DNA of 64,000 bases from Cytophagales bacterium CG12_big_fil_rev_8_21_14_0_65_40_12 (GTDB taxonomy: Bacteria > Bacteroidota > Bacteroidia > Cytophagales > Cyclobacteriaceae): assembly GCA_002786855.1 (NCBI GenBank), contig PCUU01000024.1:1-64000 (forward strand), written 5' to 3'. The position numbers and the translations under genes are program-made. This document shows positions 12,114 through 20,079 of this stretch, piece by piece. How positions within the stretch are numbered: position 1 is the stretch's first letter; every line of letters begins with the position of its first letter. The notes under the pieces are model-generated. The model made no database searches. It saw only the letters and a program-made list of their open reading frames with translations, and was not told the DNA's origin.

Positions 12114-14177
12114 ATGCCGCTCAAAAAAGAATTACTCATCGATCGAGACCTTAGTTGGCTTTCTTTCAATAAAAGGTTGTTAGAAGAAGCACAAGATGAC
12201 AGTCTTCCAATTTATGACCGCATAAAATTCTTAGCCATTTACTCTTCGAACCTTGATGAATTTTTTAGGGTAAGGGTTGCTTCATTAAGAAGCTTGGCGG
12301 GTTTAGGTAAAAAGAACATTAAGAGACAACTAGCCTTTAGCCCAAAAAAGCTGCTTCAGTCAGTTCTAAATGAAGTAAATGATCAGCTCAAGGATTATGG
12401 AGGCATTTTTCAGAAGAGCATTTTACCCGAACTAAAAAACAAGGGTATCAAGCTCTATTACAATGAGAAAATACTCAAAACACACCTCAGGGAATGTACT
12501 GTTTTTTTCAAGAGTCATATTCTAGCGCACATACAGCCGTACTTCTTTCAACCAAGTGATAAGCTCTTTATCGAGAATAATGGGATCTACTTTATTGTGG
12601 AGCTGGAAAAATTAGATGGGTCTGAAGTGACCTGTTTCGCCCATTTAAGAATTCCTACAGAAGTCCCGCGTTTTTTACAGTTATCGGCAATCGGAAATAA
12701 ACACTACATCGCTTTTATCGATGACATTATTAGACAAAATCTAAATTTTCTATTCAAGGATTACAAGGTACTTAACTGCTTTAGCGTGAAGCTAAATCGT
12801 GATCAAGATGTAGACCTAGAAAATTCGATTGACATTGACATTGTTTCAAATATCAAAAAGCAGTTAGAGAAGCGGAAAGTTGGTGTTCCAACCCGATTCC
12901 TTTATGACAAGTCTATGCCAGACTATATTCTCAAAACACTGGTCGATACGCTAGAATTAGAAATAAAGGATTTGGTGCCAGGCGGTAGATACCATAATTT
13001 GAATGATTTGATGGCCTTACCGAACCCGATTGGCTCAGCACTAAAAAGTAAAAAGCTTACACCAGTTTCGATAAAAGTTTTGGATGACTACCAGAGTATT
13101 TTCAAGGCAATTGAAGAAAAGGATAGAATCCTTCATTTCCCCTATCAGTCGTATGATTATATCCTAAGGTTCTTTAATGAAGCGGCTACTGACCCATCTG
13201 TGACTTCAATCAAAGCCACTCTGTACCGAATAGCCGCTAACTCTGTTGTTGCTCAATCCTTTATATCAGCAGCAAAAAATGGCAAAAAAGTAGAAGTCTT
13301 TGTTGAATTGAAGGCTCGCTTTGATGAGGCTAATAATATTCGATGGGCTGAACGAATGATTGAGGCAGGCGTCATCGTAACTTATAGTTTACCTGATTTA
13401 AAAGTTCATGCCAAGGTGGTTCTTATTAGAAGAAAGACGGATAACGGAGTCAAAAAATTCGCCTTTTTCGGCACGGGTAATTTTAATGAAAATACAGCAG
13501 GTATTTATGCCGATCATGGCTTGCTTACCACCCACAATGGGATGACCCAAGAACTAGAAAGTGTGTTTCATCTTTTGCAAAAGGGAACTGAAATAACCTT
13601 GCAACTGAAATACCTTTTGGTGGCGAGACACAATATGCAAACCAAGTTGATTGCTCTGATTGATAGAGAGATTGAGCATGTAAAAAATGGAAAGATTGGC
13701 CATTTCATTATAAAACTGAACAATCTGGAAGAAGAAACCATGATCGAAAAGCTCTACGAGGCTTCTCGAGCTGGAGTGCAAATCGACTTAATCATTAGAG
13801 GCATTTGCAGACTCAGACCTGGTATACCAGAAATAAGTGATAATATAAAGGCTATTCGAGTAGTAGATGGCTTTTTGGAACATGCCCGGATTTTCAAATT
13901 CTATAACAATGGCAACCCGGAATTATTTATGTCGTCTGCCGACTGGATGAGTCGAAACCTCCATAGAAGAATTGAAGTAGGTTTTCCAATTTATGATGAA
14001 GATGCCTTTAATGAAATCAGTCAGCTATTAGAGTTACAACTCAAGGACAATACAAAAGCCCGATCTCTAGATTCCAACTTGAATCACCACTTGATACATT
14101 CAAAAACTAAGGCCGTGCGAAGCCAGACCGACTTTTATAAATACCTCGTTGATAAAGAAAAATCTCAGAAGATGTAA
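12114..14177 (+). CDS. ppk1: Polyphosphate kinase 1
   Basis: A 687-residue PPK1, which polymerises the ATP gamma-phosphate into inorganic polyphosphate. The N-terminal domain begins with RDLSWLSFNKRLLEEA and SNLDEFFRVRVASLR. The phospholipase-D-like catalytic half has the autophosphorylated histidine H432 in LKVHAKVVLI, followed by GTGNFNENTAGIYADHGLLT, and the second conserved histidine H590 in FLEHARIF. The ATG at 12114 (MPLKKELL) is preferred over a TTG at 12099. The gene ends 13 bp inside the opposite-strand HD-PycTM gene, so their 3' ends overlap. Confidence 0.96.
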   Translation: MPLKKELLIDRDLSWLSFNKRLLEEAQDDSLPIYDRIKFLAIYSSNLDEFFRVRVASLRSLAGLGKKNIKRQLAFSPKKLLQSVLNEVNDQLKDYGGIFQKSILPELKNKGIKLYYNEKILKTHLRECTVFFKSHILAHIQPYFFQPSDKLFIENNGIYFIVELEKLDGSEVTCFAHLRIPTEVPRFLQLSAIGNKHYIAFIDDIIRQNLNFLFKDYKVLNCFSVKLNRDQDVDLENSIDIDIVSNIKKQLEKRKVGVPTRFLYDKSMPDYILKTLVDTLELEIKDLVPGGRYHNLNDLMALPNPIGSALKSKKLTPVSIKVLDDYQSIFKAIEEKDRILHFPYQSYDYILRFFNEAATDPSVTSIKATLYRIAANSVVAQSFISAAKNGKKVEVFVELKARFDEANNIRWAERMIEAGVIVTYSLPDLKVHAKVVLIRRKTDNGVKKFAFFGTGNFNENTAGIYADHGLLTTHNGMTQELESVFHLLQKGTEITLQLKYLLVARHNMQTKLIALIDREIEHVKNGKIGHFIIKLNNLEEETMIEKLYEASRAGVQIDLIIRGICRLRPGIPEISDNIKAIRVVDGFLEHARIFKFYNNGNPELFMSSADWMSRNLHRRIEVGFPIYDEDAFNEISQLLELQLKDNTKARSLDSNLNHHLIHSKTKAVRSQTDFYKYLVDKEKSQKM

Positions 14178-15400
14178 AAGTTTTGCTGGTCTTCAGGAGG
14201 GAAAAGCAGCATAGCGCAAACAAAAGCCAAAATAGAAAGCACAAAGCCGATCATAAAAATGGTATAAGCCAAGCGCAAAAGCTTGTATTTTTTTCCAAGC
14301 ACTACACCAAGAAAATAAATGTCTTTGATCATACTGCCATAGAGATAGTCGCCATCTTTCATCATTTCCTTCATTCCCCATTCATAGCGATCAAGCTTCA
14401 TTTTATGAAAATTGCCAAAAAACAGTAGGTTGGTTTTCTTCCCCAATACCTCTTCATCGGTAAACATACCTGACGAAACATTTGGCCTGGTTGCAAGAAT
14501 AGACATAACAATTGTTGACAAACAAACCACAATCAGCATCACTGTGGGGATGATGAGGTTTGGATATTCATAGAGTTTCCTAATGAGCACAGAAACAACC
14601 ACAGACAGAATGATTGTGTTTACAGAAATCATTATGTTGGCCTTATTATCGGCCATTCCGCTCAATTCAAGATGATTTTTTGAGGTTGTCCGAAACATGG
14701 TTTCTATACCTCTGTCAGGTTTTAGCAGGAGTTTATCTTCTAGTTTTCTTACCTTTTCTTCCAGCTTAAGCGTGTATTCGCCATTTCCGGATTTCTCCTT
14801 CTTTTCCTTTTTTTTCTTTTTGATCTCTTTCAAGTTCTGCTTTTTAATTGGTTCGAGATACTCCTTACCGTAAGCTGTGAAATATTCATGGTCTTTGAAG
14901 AACCTGAAATTCATCTGATTCCAGTCCTCAGAATTTATTTTGTGGCCTTTGATGTGTTCAATCTCCAAACGCATTTTTTCCGACATCATTCCGTAATCTG
15001 AACATGCCAGATGGTGCAAATCGGCATCGCAAAGTACTTCTTCCATTAAATTTTTAGGGCTCTGAGGCATTTGAGTGGCCATGATACAACCCACAACCTG
15101 CGCTATTTTGTCAGCCGGATAGTCTTGGCGAGTCAAAAACTCCTCGGCAATTCGGGCGCTGTCTTTTTCGTGATTATTGCAGCCAGAACGATAACCAGTA
15201 TCATGAAACCAGGCAGCAATAGCAACAATCTCCAGCTCTTCTTCCGACAAGCCACAGGCTTTGCCTATTGATTGAGAAGATTCCACCACTCGCTCGGTAT
15301 GGTAATGATCGTGGTAAACAAACTTTGATGGAATTTCTGTCGTAAGAATCTCCTCGGTATATTTGGCTACCTTCTTTAGAATTTCACTAGTTTCAGTCAT
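14165..15400 (-). CDS. HD phosphohydrolase fused to a Pycsar-effector-like (PycTM) membrane module
   Basis: A 411-residue two-part protein. Residues 25-185 form an HD domain with intact metal ligands H34, H66-D67 and D127 (HYHTERV, WFHDTGY, CDADLHH), the fold of nucleotide phosphohydrolases and cyclic-nucleotide phosphodiesterases. A Lys-rich charged linker and coiled coil (190-228) leads to a C-terminal module (229-400). That module contains R-x3-MFRTTSKNH and GMADNKANIMISVNTIILSV, with membrane helices near 257-274, 281-302 and 379-400. This resembles the Pycsar effector transmembrane domain (DUF5706/PycTM). In Pycsar defence such modules respond to cCMP/cUMP and disrupt the membrane, but no cyclase gene is present in the window. 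The ATG at 15400 is preferred over a GTG one codon earlier. It converges on ppk1. Confidence 0.82.
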   Translation of the reverse strand: MTETSEILKKVAKYTEEILTTEIPSKFVYHDHYHTERVVESSQSIGKACGLSEEELEIVAIAAWFHDTGYRSGCNNHEKDSARIAEEFLTRQDYPADKIAQVVGCIMATQMPQSPKNLMEEVLCDADLHHLACSDYGMMSEKMRLEIEHIKGHKINSEDWNQMNFRFFKDHEYFTAYGKEYLEPIKKQNLKEIKKKKKEKKEKSGNGEYTLKLEEKVRKLEDKLLLKPDRGIETMFRTTSKNHLELSGMADNKANIMISVNTIILSVVVSVLIRKLYEYPNLIIPTVMLIVVCLSTIVMSILATRPNVSSGMFTDEEVLGKKTNLLFFGNFHKMKLDRYEWGMKEMMKDGDYLYGSMIKDIYFLGVVLGKKYKLLRLAYTIFMIGFVLSILAFVCAMLLFPPEDQQNFYIF

Positions 15401-15489
15401 CACCCTAATATAATTTGCTGATTTTAAATAACATACTTTGTGTTCAACCCAAAACTAATTCTCGGCAGATTAAGTTTAGTTCCAGAACT

Positions 15490-16332
15490 ATGAAGCTAAC
15501 GACAATTTTCATTCATTTAATATTTTGCAGCGTTTTTCCTTTGAAGGCGAATGCCCAAGGGAAAAATGCATTTCCTTACAACTTAGAGAAACCCGATGGC
15601 CTGTTTGTCATGCCCTCATTTTTGGAGGAAATCTCAGGACTGACCTACTTAGCACCCAATCAACTGGCCGCATTAAATGATGAACATGGCCGAATTTACG
15701 TCTATGACATAAAACAGAAAAAAATCGTTCAAAGGATTCGCTTTGAAGGGAATGGGGATTTTGAAGGGCTAGAGTTGGTCGGAAAAGACATGTACGCAAT
15801 TAAGAGCAATGGCCAAATGTTTCGGTTTAATATTGAAGTGGACGGGGTTGTAGAAACCATTGATGGTCCTTTCAATCATAATAATAATCTCGAAGGTCTC
15901 GGCTATGACAAAAAGAGCGACAATTTATTGTTGGCACTGAAAGAAAGTGGGGATGTGGCAAGTGTCAAAGTAAAAGGAAAGGCGGTTTATGGATACAATT
16001 TATCGAGCAAAACATTTTCGAAAACTCCCTTATTCGTGTTGAATGATGCCGATCTGGAAAGAGTGCTTGGCGCCAACCATACCAAATTGAGGCCTTCTGG
16101 GATAGCCGTTCACCCCATCACTGGAGAGATCTATATGGTAGCATCGGTGGGTAGTGCTTTGGTAGTATTTGATAATTCGGGCAAGCCTAAAAATCTTACG
16201 CTACTCAAAAAAAGCCTATTCCCACAGCCAGAAGGCATTACTTTTAGCCCCAATGGAGATTTGTTCATTTCCAATGAAGGTGATGGTGATGGTGATGGAG
16301 GAACCATTCTAAGGTTTAAAATGAAGAAATAA
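15490..16332 (+). CDS. SdiA-regulated / phytase-like beta-propeller protein, exported
   Basis: A 280-residue protein with a signal peptide (residues 1-22, ending KANAQG). The body is a beta-propeller: EISGLTYLAPNQLAALNDEHGRIYVYD, then DFEGLELVG, NNLEGLGYDKKSDNLLLALKE and the late PEGITFSPNGDLFISNEGDGDGDGG. This is the pattern of the SdiA-regulated (YjiK-like) family, related in fold to beta-propeller phytases; the final Asp/Gly-rich loop could bind calcium. The ATG at 15490 gives a clean signal peptide, unlike the TTG at 15415. It is followed after 57 bp by the phosphoesterase-barrel gene, so they may be co-transcribed. Enzymatic activity is unproven. Confidence 0.75.
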   Translation: MKLTTIFIHLIFCSVFPLKANAQGKNAFPYNLEKPDGLFVMPSFLEEISGLTYLAPNQLAALNDEHGRIYVYDIKQKKIVQRIRFEGNGDFEGLELVGKDMYAIKSNGQMFRFNIEVDGVVETIDGPFNHNNNLEGLGYDKKSDNLLLALKESGDVASVKVKGKAVYGYNLSSKTFSKTPLFVLNDADLERVLGANHTKLRPSGIAVHPITGEIYMVASVGSALVVFDNSGKPKNLTLLKKSLFPQPEGITFSPNGDLFISNEGDGDGDGGTILRFKMKK

Positions 16333-16389
16333 AAGCCTTGAATTTTTTCTTGGCAATTGGCGTTTACCCGACATCAAATAGTCATATCT

Positions 16390-19300
16390 ATGATCAGAAC
16401 ATTCTCCTTCGCCCTCATTCTCCTCTGCCTGAATACCTTTTACTCATTGGCATTCCAAGAAAAAGAAAAACCTATCTATTCTGTTTTTTTGATCGGTGAT
16501 GCTGGCGAGCCTTTCGAAAACCCTGTTCTAACACTGCTCAAAAAGGAACTGGACAGAGTTGGCAGTAATGGCACTGTAATTTATTTAGGCGACAATATTT
16601 ACCCAAAAGGCATGCCTCCCAAAGGAGATAAATTAAGGGCTGATGCCGAAAAAGCAATCAATGGACAAATCGATGCTATCAAAGATTTTGAGGGAAAAAA
16701 ATTCTTTATTCCGGGAAACCACGATTGGGCACAAGGGCGCAAACTAGGCGTTGAATGGCTGGCAAGGCAAGAAAGTTATGTAGAAAACCGATTGGACAGC
16801 CAGGATGTTTGGATTCCGTCAAGAGGATGCCCTGGACCTATGGAAATTAACCTCACCGATCAAATTACCTTAGTGGTAGTCGATACGCAGTGGTTTTTGC
16901 ACAAAGGCGCCAAACCTGCCGAAGGTTCGGATTGTGATGCAATTTCGAAAGAAGAATTGGTCGCCAGTTTTCAAGATGTTTTACTAAGGAATGCCACAAA
17001 AAAAGTAATTGTGGCTTCGCATCATCCGATGTATACCTATGGTATTCATGGCGGTGTTTTTAGTGCAAAAGATCATCTTTTCCCGCTCACCGCCTCTAAA
17101 AAAACAAAATGGTTATACCTGCCATTACCTGGATTAGGATCGATTTATCCCTTATATAGAAAGTGGTTCGGGAATATTCAAGACACCTCGCATCCCATTT
17201 ACCAGCAATTCAGAGATGCCATGGTTTCATTAATGAAACAACATCCAGACATTGTGCATGTAGCAGGCCATGAGCATGCCCTCGAACACATTCAAAAAGA
17301 GGGAATGAGTTTTATAGTGAGTGGCGCTGGTGCAAAAAACAACGCTCATGTCAAACAAAAAGGAGATGCCCTGTTTGCTACCAACACGCTTGGTTTTGCG
17401 AGGTTGGATTATTTTGCTGATGGCAGAACAGAACTTCAATTCATTAGTCCCGAAAATGAAGATAATAAGGCACTTTACACCGCTACAATTTCTACCAAGA
17501 CCTTCTTGCCTAAGCCAGAAAGTTTAATCGCAAAGTATTCCAGAATCAGTTTTGAAGGCCAAGACACTATTTTTGCAGCAAGCCAACTTTACCATATCCG
17601 AAGTAAATTTCACATCAACATGTTTGGTGAAAACTACCGTAAAGAATGGGTCACTCCCTTGAAAGTCCCTGTATTTGATATTGGAACAGAAAAAGGTGGA
17701 TTGGAAATACTACAGCGCGGTGGTGGACATCAGACCATTTCTTTGAGGCTTGAGAACAAAAAAGGCCAGCAATATGTATTGCGGTCGATGGATAAAAACC
17801 CGGCACTTACGCTCCCACAAGAGCTTCGCGAAACCTTTATCAAATCCATTGTGCAAGATGGCATTTCGTCTTCTCATCCTTACGCTCCCATGGTGATTCC
17901 TACCTTAGCCGATGCCGCTGGTATTTACCATACCAACCCAAAAGTGGTGTTTATTCCTGACGATCCTCGTTTTGGAATCCACAGAAAAGCCTTGGCCAAT
18001 TCTTTGGCTTTGTTCGAAGAACGTGCCAACAAGAAAAACATTAAAGAAGACTTTTTTGGAAATGGCGATGACGTAGAATCGAGCATAGACCTTTACGAGA
18101 CTTTAAGAAAAGACAATGACAACCACGTTGACCAAGTCTTTGTGACCAGAAATAGGCTTTTCGATTTTTGGCTAGGCGACTGGGACCGACATGACGATCA
18201 GTGGCGTTGGGTAGAATACAATAAAAAAGATGATGAAAAGCTTTACAGGCCAATTCCAAGAGATAGAGATGTGGCCTTCTTTTCTGGTGAAGGTTTGTTT
18301 AAAAAAGTTGCAGCTTCCAAATGGGCACAGCCAGCACTCAAGGGTTTTCACGATGATATCGAGTATGTGCCCAGCTTAGGGGCTTACAGAATCCGCTACT
18401 TCGACAGGATTTTTATGACCGAGGTATCTTTGGAGCAATGGATTGCACAGGCCGAAGAACTGAAAGCATCTTTGACCGATGAAGTGATCGAAAAAGCCAT
18501 CCATTTATGGCCAAAAGAAATTTATGATTTGCACGGAGATGAAATCATAAGAAAACTAAAAAACAGGCGCGATAATCTTGAAAAATATGCCCGCGAATAT
18601 TACTTGTTCATTTCAAAACAAGTCGATGTTTTAGGGAGTGACAAAAAAGAGCTTTTCAAAATCGAAAGACTTGATGACGAAACCACAAAAGTGACAGTTT
18701 ACAAGATTTCTAAAAAGGGAGAGCTCGACAAAGTGATCTATGAGCGCACCTTTAAGACAGAAGAAACGGATGAAATTCGATTATTTGGTTTTGATGGCGA
18801 AGACCGTTTCGAAGTATCAGGAAAAGTCAAAAAAGGAATTAAGGTCAGGATTATCGCTGGAGACGATGATGACATCATCGTGGACGATAGTTTTGTTGGT
18901 GGCTTAAGCAAGAAAACCGTGGTTTACGATAATGCCAAAGGCACATCATTAACTACAAGCAAAGAGACCAAAAATCTGACCACCGATAAGGATTCAGAAA
19001 TTAATAGGTATAACCGAGAAGAATTCGATTTCGATTTACGGTCTCCTGTCATATCAATCAACGCAAACCCCGATGATGGTATATTTTTGGGAGGAGGCAT
19101 TTCAATTAAAAAAGATGGTTTTAGAAATGAGCCCTATCGTTCTAAGCACACTATTGTAGGTAACTATGCGATTGGAACTTCCTCGTACAATCTCAATTAC
19201 GATCTTCATGTCATAGATGCATTTGGCAAAGCAGATTTTTCACTCAATGCCGATGCCCGTGTTCCCAACTTTGTGAATAATTTCTTTGGTTTAGGCAACG

Positions 19301-20079
19301 AAACATCATTTGATGACGAACTCGAAAAAACATTTTACAGAACGCGATTCGAAGAGTTTTCTATTAGGCCAACGGTGGACTTAAATGTTGGGAGCAAAGC
19401 CACAGTCAATTTTGGTCCGATTTTCAGGACTGTAGAGGTGGAAGAAAATACCGATCGTTTTATTGCAGATTTTGCTCAAGTTTCGCCCTTTGGCGCCACC
19501 CTTTTTGAACAAAAAATTTATGGTGGAGCCACGGTAGGCTTTCATTTCGATGGGCGAGATCAGGGCTTAATCCCCTCAAAAGGAATGGCCTTCAACGCCA
19601 CTTATGATTACAGCAATGGGCTCAACGATGAATCAGCCAACAGTGGCCAATTCAAAACAGACCTTACTTTTATCTGGAGTTTTAGCGAACCATCTCGTAC
19701 TACATTTGCCACTCGCGTGGGTTATCAAAAGAGTTTTGGCGATTTCGAGTTTTTCCAAGCCGCTCAACTAGACGGTTTCAATACCTTAAGAGGATTCAAA
19801 AGATATCGTTTTTCTGGAGAAAGCAGTTTCTATCATCAGTTCGATATTAGAATAAAGCTCTTTGATTGGCAATCTTACTTTTTACCCTCTCAAGTTGGTC
19901 TAGTCCTATTCAATGATCTTGGTCGGGTTTGGGTAGAAGGAGAAAATTCTGAGAAACTGCACCATGGCTATGGAGGAGGCATATTTCTTACCCCATTCAA
20001 TTTTGCTGCAATTACGGTATTGGCCGCTGCTTCAGAAGAGGGGGTATATCCCTTGTTGAAATTTGGCTTTTTCTTTTAA
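16390..20079 (+). CDS. Outer-membrane fusion: metallophosphoesterase, kinase-like domain and BamA-like barrel
   Basis: A 1229-residue exported protein. After a signal peptide (1-22) comes a calcineurin-like phosphoesterase with all metal motifs: D37 in GDAGEP, G-D68-N69-x-Y, G-N110-H111-D112, H211/H212, and G-H294-E-H296. Residues about 435-640 look like a protein-kinase-like fold of the CotH/FAM20/HipA sort. They show a Gly-rich loop (GGGH 444-447), a strand with basic residues (YVLRSMDK 462-469), a catalytic-loop-like W598-D599-R600-H601-D602-D603-Q604 and a PIPRDRDVAF element (D625, D627). Beta-strand-rich sequence (about 890-1229) ending in FGFFF forms a BamA/TamA-like outer-membrane barrel. 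The phosphoesterase-barrel pairing is known in Bacteroidota; the kinase assignment is mine. The ATG at 16390 starts the signal peptide. Its stop overlaps the opposite gene by 4 bp. Confidence 0.85.
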   Translation: MIRTFSFALILLCLNTFYSLAFQEKEKPIYSVFLIGDAGEPFENPVLTLLKKELDRVGSNGTVIYLGDNIYPKGMPPKGDKLRADAEKAINGQIDAIKDFEGKKFFIPGNHDWAQGRKLGVEWLARQESYVENRLDSQDVWIPSRGCPGPMEINLTDQITLVVVDTQWFLHKGAKPAEGSDCDAISKEELVASFQDVLLRNATKKVIVASHHPMYTYGIHGGVFSAKDHLFPLTASKKTKWLYLPLPGLGSIYPLYRKWFGNIQDTSHPIYQQFRDAMVSLMKQHPDIVHVAGHEHALEHIQKEGMSFIVSGAGAKNNAHVKQKGDALFATNTLGFARLDYFADGRTELQFISPENEDNKALYTATISTKTFLPKPESLIAKYSRISFEGQDTIFAASQLYHIRSKFHINMFGENYRKEWVTPLKVPVFDIGTEKGGLEILQRGGGHQTISLRLENKKGQQYVLRSMDKNPALTLPQELRETFIKSIVQDGISSSHPYAPMVIPTLADAAGIYHTNPKVVFIPDDPRFGIHRKALANSLALFEERANKKNIKEDFFGNGDDVESSIDLYETLRKDNDNHVDQVFVTRNRLFDFWLGDWDRHDDQWRWVEYNKKDDEKLYRPIPRDRDVAFFSGEGLFKKVAASKWAQPALKGFHDDIEYVPSLGAYRIRYFDRIFMTEVSLEQWIAQAEELKASLTDEVIEKAIHLWPKEIYDLHGDEIIRKLKNRRDNLEKYAREYYLFISKQVDVLGSDKKELFKIERLDDETTKVTVYKISKKGELDKVIYERTFKTEETDEIRLFGFDGEDRFEVSGKVKKGIKVRIIAGDDDDIIVDDSFVGGLSKKTVVYDNAKGTSLTTSKETKNLTTDKDSEINRYNREEFDFDLRSPVISINANPDDGIFLGGGISIKKDGFRNEPYRSKHTIVGNYAIGTSSYNLNYDLHVIDAFGKADFSLNADARVPNFVNNFFGLGNETSFDDELEKTFYRTRFEEFSIRPTVDLNVGSKATVNFGPIFRTVEVEENTDRFIADFAQVSPFGATLFEQKIYGGATVGFHFDGRDQGLIPSKGMAFNATYDYSNGLNDESANSGQFKTDLTFIWSFSEPSRTTFATRVGYQKSFGDFEFFQAAQLDGFNTLRGFKRYRFSGESSFYHQFDIRIKLFDWQSYFLPSQVGLVLFNDLGRVWVEGENSEKLHHGYGGGIFLTPFNFAAITVLAAASEEGVYPLLKFGFFF

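Follow-up and report, generated by a model that had tools for sequence, protein, structure and literature searches.

A kinase-like domain between a phosphatase-like domain and an Omp85-type barrel in Bacteroidota

Introduction

The window, a stretch of 64,000 nucleotides of contig PCUU01000024.1 from the Cytophagales bacterium CG12_big_fil_rev_8_21_14_0_65_40_12, encodes a large protein in which a phosphatase-like domain and an outer-membrane barrel enclose a domain of its own kind. A sequence-only reading of the window had described this middle domain as kinase-like. This raises the question of whether it has a kinase fold, whether it is active, and on which side of the outer membrane it would work. 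To our knowledge exported kinases are few, and the question of what supplies their phosphate beyond the cytosol has yet to be settled. Within the Bacteroidota, passages of a review on secretion (PMC10202324) describe the kinases that phosphorylate exported gingipains as not identified.

The domain has no name in three family libraries, since scans of Pfam, NCBIfam and PADLOC left its representative in the window unmatched, and it occurs patchily in 111 of the 296 Bacteroidota genomes of an evenly drawn sample (E ≤ 0.001), either alone, with a barrel, or with a barrel and a phosphatase. No description of it was found in the open-licence literature, and it may already be listed in Table S1 of the KINtaro paper. 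If active, the domain would phosphorylate something outside the cytoplasm. Here its features, distribution and genomic setting are described, together with a proposed mechanism and the alternatives to it.

Gene and protein features

Read from the ATG at 16390 the protein comprises 1,229 residues, and from the TTG at 16357 it comprises 1,240. We think that the ATG is the better start, because the signal-peptide-like segment begins there. Residue numbers given here count from the TTG; those of the sequence-only reading fit the ATG and are hence 11 lower. With this offset allowed for, the kinase-type motifs quoted there were all recovered at the right residues and DNA coordinates (GGGH 455-458, YVLRSMDK 473-480, DRHDDQ 610-615 and PIPRDRD 632-638 in the 1,240-residue reading). 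The domain was correctly placed between a phosphoesterase and a barrel, both of which exceed their Pfam cut-offs, but it is longer than had been proposed. The features are summarized in Table 1.

Table 1. Features of the gene, its product and the neighbouring genes, with positions in the window
Feature	Position	Strand	Basis
Entire gene, encoding in this order a signal-peptide-like segment, a phosphatase, a kinase-like domain and an Omp85-type barrel	16390..20079	+	Open reading frame; hydrophobic N-terminus by eye
Calcineurin-like / purple-acid-phosphatase-like metallophosphatase domain, residues ~40-390	16474..17526	+	PF00149, 27.5 bits (cut-off 21.5); motifs
Kinase-like domain, residues ~415-760	17599..18636	+	Conservation, library scans; borders approximate
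Gly-rich stretch G447-G456 (GG...GG), possible loop for nucleotide binding	17695..17724	+	Conservation; role inferred
YVLRSMDK strand, candidate ATP-binding lysine strand (R476 or K480)	17773..17796	+	Conservation
D501, preceding the HPYAP...LADAAGI helix and a candidate for the role of the alpha-C acidic residue	17857..17859	+	Conservation; role inferred
Catalytic-loop-like D608-W-D610-R-H-D-D-Q615-W	18178..18204	+	Conservation, hhalign, PDB match
P-I-P-R-D636-R-D638, putative metal-binding (DFG-like) element, of the same form as P-x-D-x-D of CotH	18250..18270	+	Conservation, hhalign
R737-R738 close to the domain end, R737 invariant (92/92)	18565..18570	+	Conservation
Omp85-type outer-membrane barrel, residues ~972-1240	19270..20076	+	PF01103, 35.5 bits (cut-off 24) over 972-1201
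SdiA-regulated / phytase-like propeller gene, directly upstream, possible operon partner	15490..16332	+	PF06977, 48.3 bits; PF13449, 22.7 bits (under cut-off)
HD domain and PycTM membrane protein, divergent neighbour	14165..15403	-	PF18967, 127.3 bits; PF01966, 24.3 bits
Polyphosphate kinase PPK1, recurrent neighbour	12123..14177	+	Four PP_kinase Pfam models

The phosphatase domain carries the motifs GDAG (at residue 47), GDNIYP (78), GNHD (120), SHHP (221) and GHEH (304). Simple patterns for these five motifs were found in 83, 83, 86, 74 and 70 of 104 long frames, respectively. On the barrel the NCBIfam subfamily model NF047779 scores 77.9 bits, under its cut-off of 200.

Distribution and architectures

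The nearest named relative is that of Roseivirga thermotolerans (74% identical). Three architectures occur: phosphatase, domain and barrel; domain and barrel; and the domain alone (about 420-590 residues). The 80 named loci include 63 of the first and 17 of the second kind, with 5 solo frames. Frame lengths at 137 listed places, where some of the short frames are cut by contig ends, are at least 1,150 residues in 81, 800-1,050 in 41 and less than 800 in 15. Because the architecture changes at least eight times on a quick tree of 92 domain sequences, the parts appear to have been shuffled. None of the seven other sampled genomes of the window's own family has the domain, which is why it is regarded as dispensable and as subject to frequent gain or loss.

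Phage records gave no match to the domain. Plasmid matches came from five records (three from Hymenobacter, one each from Persicobacter and Parabacteroides), four of them annotated as hypothetical protein and one lying where no gene is listed. The copy on the Parabacteroides distasonis plasmid (L239:5884-8343, 819 residues, hypothetical protein) has Gly at the position of K480 and Asn at 610, 615 and 638, and is possibly a pseudokinase.

Conservation of the kinase-like domain

The window's domain was aligned with 91 relatives that are 21-46% identical to it; these 92 rows were collected with the window's own domain as query and are thus biased towards its sequence. In the Gly-rich stretch, G447 is kept in 81, G448 in 88, G455 in 82 and G456 in 84 of the 92 rows. 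Among the strand and alpha-C candidates the counts are 82 for R476, 87 for K480, 87 for D501 (Glu in three further rows) and 89 for E554. The catalytic-loop-like segment retains D608 in 89, D610 in 84, R611 in 89, H612 in 78 and Q615 in 85 rows, and the metal-type element retains D636 in 84 and D638 in 82. The invariant R737 lies towards the end, and the tryptophans of D608-W-D610-R-H-x-x-Q615-W, the prolines of P-x-P-x-D636-x-D638 and G646 also stand out. D610 and D636 lie 25-27 residues apart in 86 of the 92 rows.

By sequence, the catalytic Asp and the metal-type Gln/Asp set of the protein-kinase-like (PKL) superfamily are thus present as D610, Q615, D636 and D638. E554 was considered as the alpha-C Glu and rejected as a certain assignment: its position falls after the HipA-like segment, and D501 fits better, itself as a candidate only.

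In a second alignment of the window's domain with 47 named relatives (48 rows), K480, D608, D610, R611, H612, Q615, D636 and D638 are invariant. An alignment of the catalytic segment (A3) holds 47 of the 60 rows of alignment A1; its invariant columns are biased, since the 13 rows left out are mostly members that have lost site residues, plus the intact L067.

Similarity to known kinase folds

Profiles of the domain family were compared by hhalign with those of 30 CotH domains from the same phylum and of 30 HipA proteins. The score against CotH is 33.2 (P 0.002, probability 14%) and against HipA 30.8 (P 0.0037, probability 9%). The 24 null profiles, made from neighbour families, from other parts of the same proteins (phosphatase and barrel) and from reversed profiles, reach 20.5 at most, and ten column shuffles reach 22.7 (CotH) and 22.0 (HipA). 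CotH and HipA are related kinase folds, and score 41.8 against each other in the same comparison. When the 92-row alignment was used, CotH scored 33.0 and HipA 27.9 against a null maximum of 22.9, with probabilities of 9% and 3%.

In the register of these alignments W609-D610 coincides with W-D in CotH, and D610-R-H coincides with D-x-H in HipA. Of the 30 CotH rows, W-D ... P-x-D-x-D is formed by W in 19, D in 29, P in 27, D in 29, and D or N in 28; in N-x-D-x-H-x-x-N of the 30 HipA rows, the first N is found in 28 and D, H and the last N in 29 each. The Asp-to-Asp spacing, counted from aligned stretches, is 26 in one CotH row (L172) and 23 in one HipA row (L202). Q615 takes the place of the Asn that HipA (29 of 30 rows) and CtkA have after the catalytic Asp; in CotH this column is not conserved (N in 10 and a gap in 10 of 30). 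The alignment to HipA also includes the segment from LADAAGI onward.

When the catalytic segment was searched against the PDB, the kinase CtkA was the best match (E 0.021), its LGNFDRHNGNW matching LGDWDRHDDQW of the window's domain; next came HDAC6, which is not a kinase, with the same short motif (E 0.044). Searches of the PDB with the whole domain gave nothing significant: the best matches were not kinases, and CtkA ranked third (E 0.36) and second (E 0.68). Only the C-lobe aligns: global hhalign for the N-lobe gave no alignment with HipA and a weak one with CotH. G448 and K480 are kept in almost all rows, yet the N-lobe is without an established alignment to known kinases.

In the own genome, with E up to 10, the family profile found this gene only and did not reach the CotH and HipA genes present there. 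Conversely, the CotH model (PF08757) matched neither the window protein nor its domain at E up to 10, and the HipA model (PF07804) did not match the domain. Single members of the family gave weak Pfam matches to Fam20C (E 8e-4, 1 of 60 members), CotH (best E 0.013, 2 of 60) and HipA_C (E 0.19, 1 of 60). These three kinase families are among the 25 listed of 28 weakly matching Pfam families for the 60 members. A Poisson estimate for three PKL families among these 28 gives P 8e-5, if the 72 PKL families of the KINtaro paper are taken as the total, and is weaker once the scan of 48 closer members is added, in which none of the 21 weak families was recognised as PKL. In a six-frame scan of the 296 genomes with the Fam20C model (PF06702), five places were matched, the best two of them inside members of the present family; all five were under the Pfam cut-off, which was exceeded in none of the genomes.

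Because several such profile, PDB and Pfam items, each of them weak individually, add up, a kinase fold is likely. The conservation among homologues and the profile register with CotH, HipA and CtkA thus support the kinase-like character that the sequence-only reading had assigned.

Loss of catalytic residues

Loss of the D-R-H and D-R-D residues across homologues, which had been named at the outset as a reason to doubt a kinase, is mostly not seen, but it does occur in some members. In the 92-row alignment K480, D610, D636 and D638 are retained together in all 42 phosphatase-fused rows, in 26 of 37 rows with domain and barrel, and in 11 of 13 solo rows; at least one of the four is gone in the other 11 and 2. 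The association of residue loss with architecture gives a Fisher P of 9e-5 with kinship ignored. On the quick tree of the 92 rows, built with the trait columns still included, intact and lost sites require at least five changes. One phosphatase-fused row (L084) lacks H612 and E554.

In four members with domain and barrel that group on the tree (L047, L048, L052 and L056), residues 636-638 read R-H/Q-Y instead of D-R-D. Solo kinase-like genes are found side by side, three at L038:4629-9648 and two at L039:4936-8275. In each cluster one copy has Ser for the catalytic D610 and Arg for H612, which looks like a pairing of intact with altered copies.

Since the site is intact in every phosphatase-fused row examined, it is suggested that the kinase-like domain and the fused phosphatase work together, this being a correlation within related sequences.

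Neighbouring genes

Neighbours within 5 kb were counted for 78 long members, that of the window included, and for 75 shorter ones; L003-L031 and L172-L231 were left out owing to short flanks or membership in other families, and a few duplicate or contig-cut rows may be contained. The HD-PycTM gene is the most frequent companion of the long members (57 of 78, in 42 upstream on the opposite strand as in the window) and is found with 12 of the 75 shorter ones. A propeller gene accompanies 19 long and 13 shorter members, and lies upstream on the same strand in 18 and 13 of them. The counts are 19 and 10 for PPK1, and 12 and 9 for a SixA-type phosphatase, a name read from the sequence.

Loci with PPK1 belong to at least five family codes of the sampled genomes besides that of the window, and also to Hymenobacter, Pontibacter, Rufibacter, Mucilaginibacter and Ekhidna. 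It may be that HD-PycTM and PPK1 are associated with one another and not with the kinase-like gene. The recurrence of HD-PycTM, which matches a Pycsar effector model, beside PPK1 and the kinase-like gene looks like a housekeeping rather than a defence setting. In five loci (L068, L069, L079, L109 and L111), genes of the CotH family whose products begin like lipoproteins are found at most about 2.1 kb away from the kinase-like gene.

Proposed function and alternatives

By a simple hydropathy rule, a hydrophobic N-terminal segment is present in 98 of 104 phosphatase-fused members, in 51 of 54 members with domain and barrel, and in 19 of 20 solo members, a set in which two genes were counted twice. 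A lipoprotein pattern is found in 7 of the 20 solo members; others have one N-terminal membrane helix, and a few a signal-peptide-like start alone. The N-terminal (POTRA) parts of Omp85 proteins are normally in the periplasm. The export-type N-termini and the lipoprotein-like or single-helix solo forms favour the periplasm as the location of the domain.

The sequence-only reading had spoken of a surface device. A passage of the survey of Omp85 proteins by Heinz and Lithgow (2014, PMC4104836) offers a parallel, in that PlpD brings its enzyme domain to the surface, in a way that has been suggested to resemble FhaC. That the phosphatase and kinase-like domains would likewise reach the outside of the cell through the barrel and work there is nevertheless unlikely: the N-terminal hydrophobic segments of all three architectures, the periplasmic N-termini of Omp85 proteins and the apparent anchoring of several solo members fit the periplasm, though they would also be compatible with the surface, and the surface location was not supported.

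The domain is probably a new, active kinase-fold family of the cell envelope. We consider it reasonably likely that it represents an unnamed PKL core, nearest to CotH, HipA and CtkA in the logic of its catalytic loop, which is exported to the periplasm and phosphorylates an envelope substrate, paired with a phosphatase; activity as a phosphotransferase, taken by itself, is rated slightly better than even. In this mechanism the protein would be exported and its barrel embedded in the outer membrane; like the POTRA part of other Omp85 proteins, the two domains ahead of the barrel, phosphatase and kinase-like, would hang in the periplasm, and several of the solo members would be held by a lipid anchor or a single membrane helix. 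D610 would serve as catalytic base. Metal binding would fall to Q615 together with the D636-x-D638 pair, and nucleotide binding to the Gly-rich stretch with K480 (or R476). The phosphoryl group would be transferred to a protein, glycan or lipid of the envelope, and the fused purple-acid-phosphatase-like domain would work on this same pool, so as to undo the transfer or to release phosphate. It is plausible that the two domains form one phosphorylation device.

ATP is scarce in the periplasm, which counts against the mechanism, as do the Gln at the position of the metal Asn, the dispensability of the domain and the loss of site residues in divergent members. The neighbourhood of PPK1 allows a role for polyphosphate or for phosphate supply. 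A version in which a single outer-membrane protein cycles phosphorylation and dephosphorylation in the periplasm, perhaps with polyphosphate or another non-ATP compound as donor, as this recurrent neighbour hints, is improbable as it stands. For CotH, passages of PMC7821199 report that the D228Q variant is catalytically inactive and leave the source of ATP open, a question that applies to the window's domain as well.

Two further explanations concern the fold and the reaction. The domain might have a kinase fold and not be a kinase, being either a pseudokinase or a PKL protein with a different activity, such as AMPylation, glutamylation or a nucleotide-gated control over the phosphatase or barrel. 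Non-kinase reactions are known among PKL folds according to passages of the KINtaro paper, Gln stands in place of the metal Asn in 85 of the 92 rows, and some members have lost the catalytic site; the complete retention of K480, D610, D636 and D638 in the phosphatase-fused rows would be needless in a dead domain, and we regard this explanation as rather doubtful. The absence of library matches for the window's domain, the unestablished similarity of the N-lobe in global hhalign and the match of HDAC6 to the same short motif would also fit an unrelated domain, for example one that binds a phospho-ligand or a metal, in which D-R-H and D-R-D are convergent. The loop and P-x-D-x-D are found at the same spacing in CotH, the loop also fits those of CtkA and HipA, and the hhalign scores are well above those of the 24 null profiles, all of which makes an unrelated domain unlikely. 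An active envelope kinase thus remains the reading that we prefer.

Comparison with known systems

The window protein is of the same general type as the 'Metallo' class of Omp85 proteins, which is defined by a PF00149 domain ahead of an Omp85 barrel and is called metalloprotease in the survey (PMC4104836). PF00149 is a phosphoesterase domain, and the printed label in those passages is therefore to be corrected from metalloprotease to phosphoesterase. The same passages leave the intervening domain undescribed, and the main text, as far as it was available, makes no mention of a kinase. They also report that 'noNterm' barrels resemble 'Metallo' barrels, and members with domain and barrel might be part of this 'noNterm' class.

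The phosphatase resembles purple acid phosphatases and TRAP in the order GDxG, GDNxY, GNHD, H and GHxH, which we take to be the mark of that family, and in a weak phmmer match to TRAP (E 0.18), and it differs from them in being fused to a kinase-like domain and a barrel. Fam20C kinases (PF06702) belong to the secretory pathway and act outside the cytosol; to these the kinase-like domain is linked by the weak matches of single family members.

With HipA and CtkA (PF07804; PDB 3akj) the domain shares the catalytic loop, and with HipA also the segment from LADAAGI onward, but the metal Asn is replaced by Gln and the E-values are weak. HipA and CtkA proteins are cytosolic or injected, and CtkA is reportedly linked to a type IV system. 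The CotH kinases (PF08757) differ from the window's domain in that the latter is fused to a phosphatase and a barrel and has an N-lobe whose alignment to theirs is not established; with them, however, it shares the W-D and P-x-D-x-D elements in register, and against them it reaches its best hhalign score.
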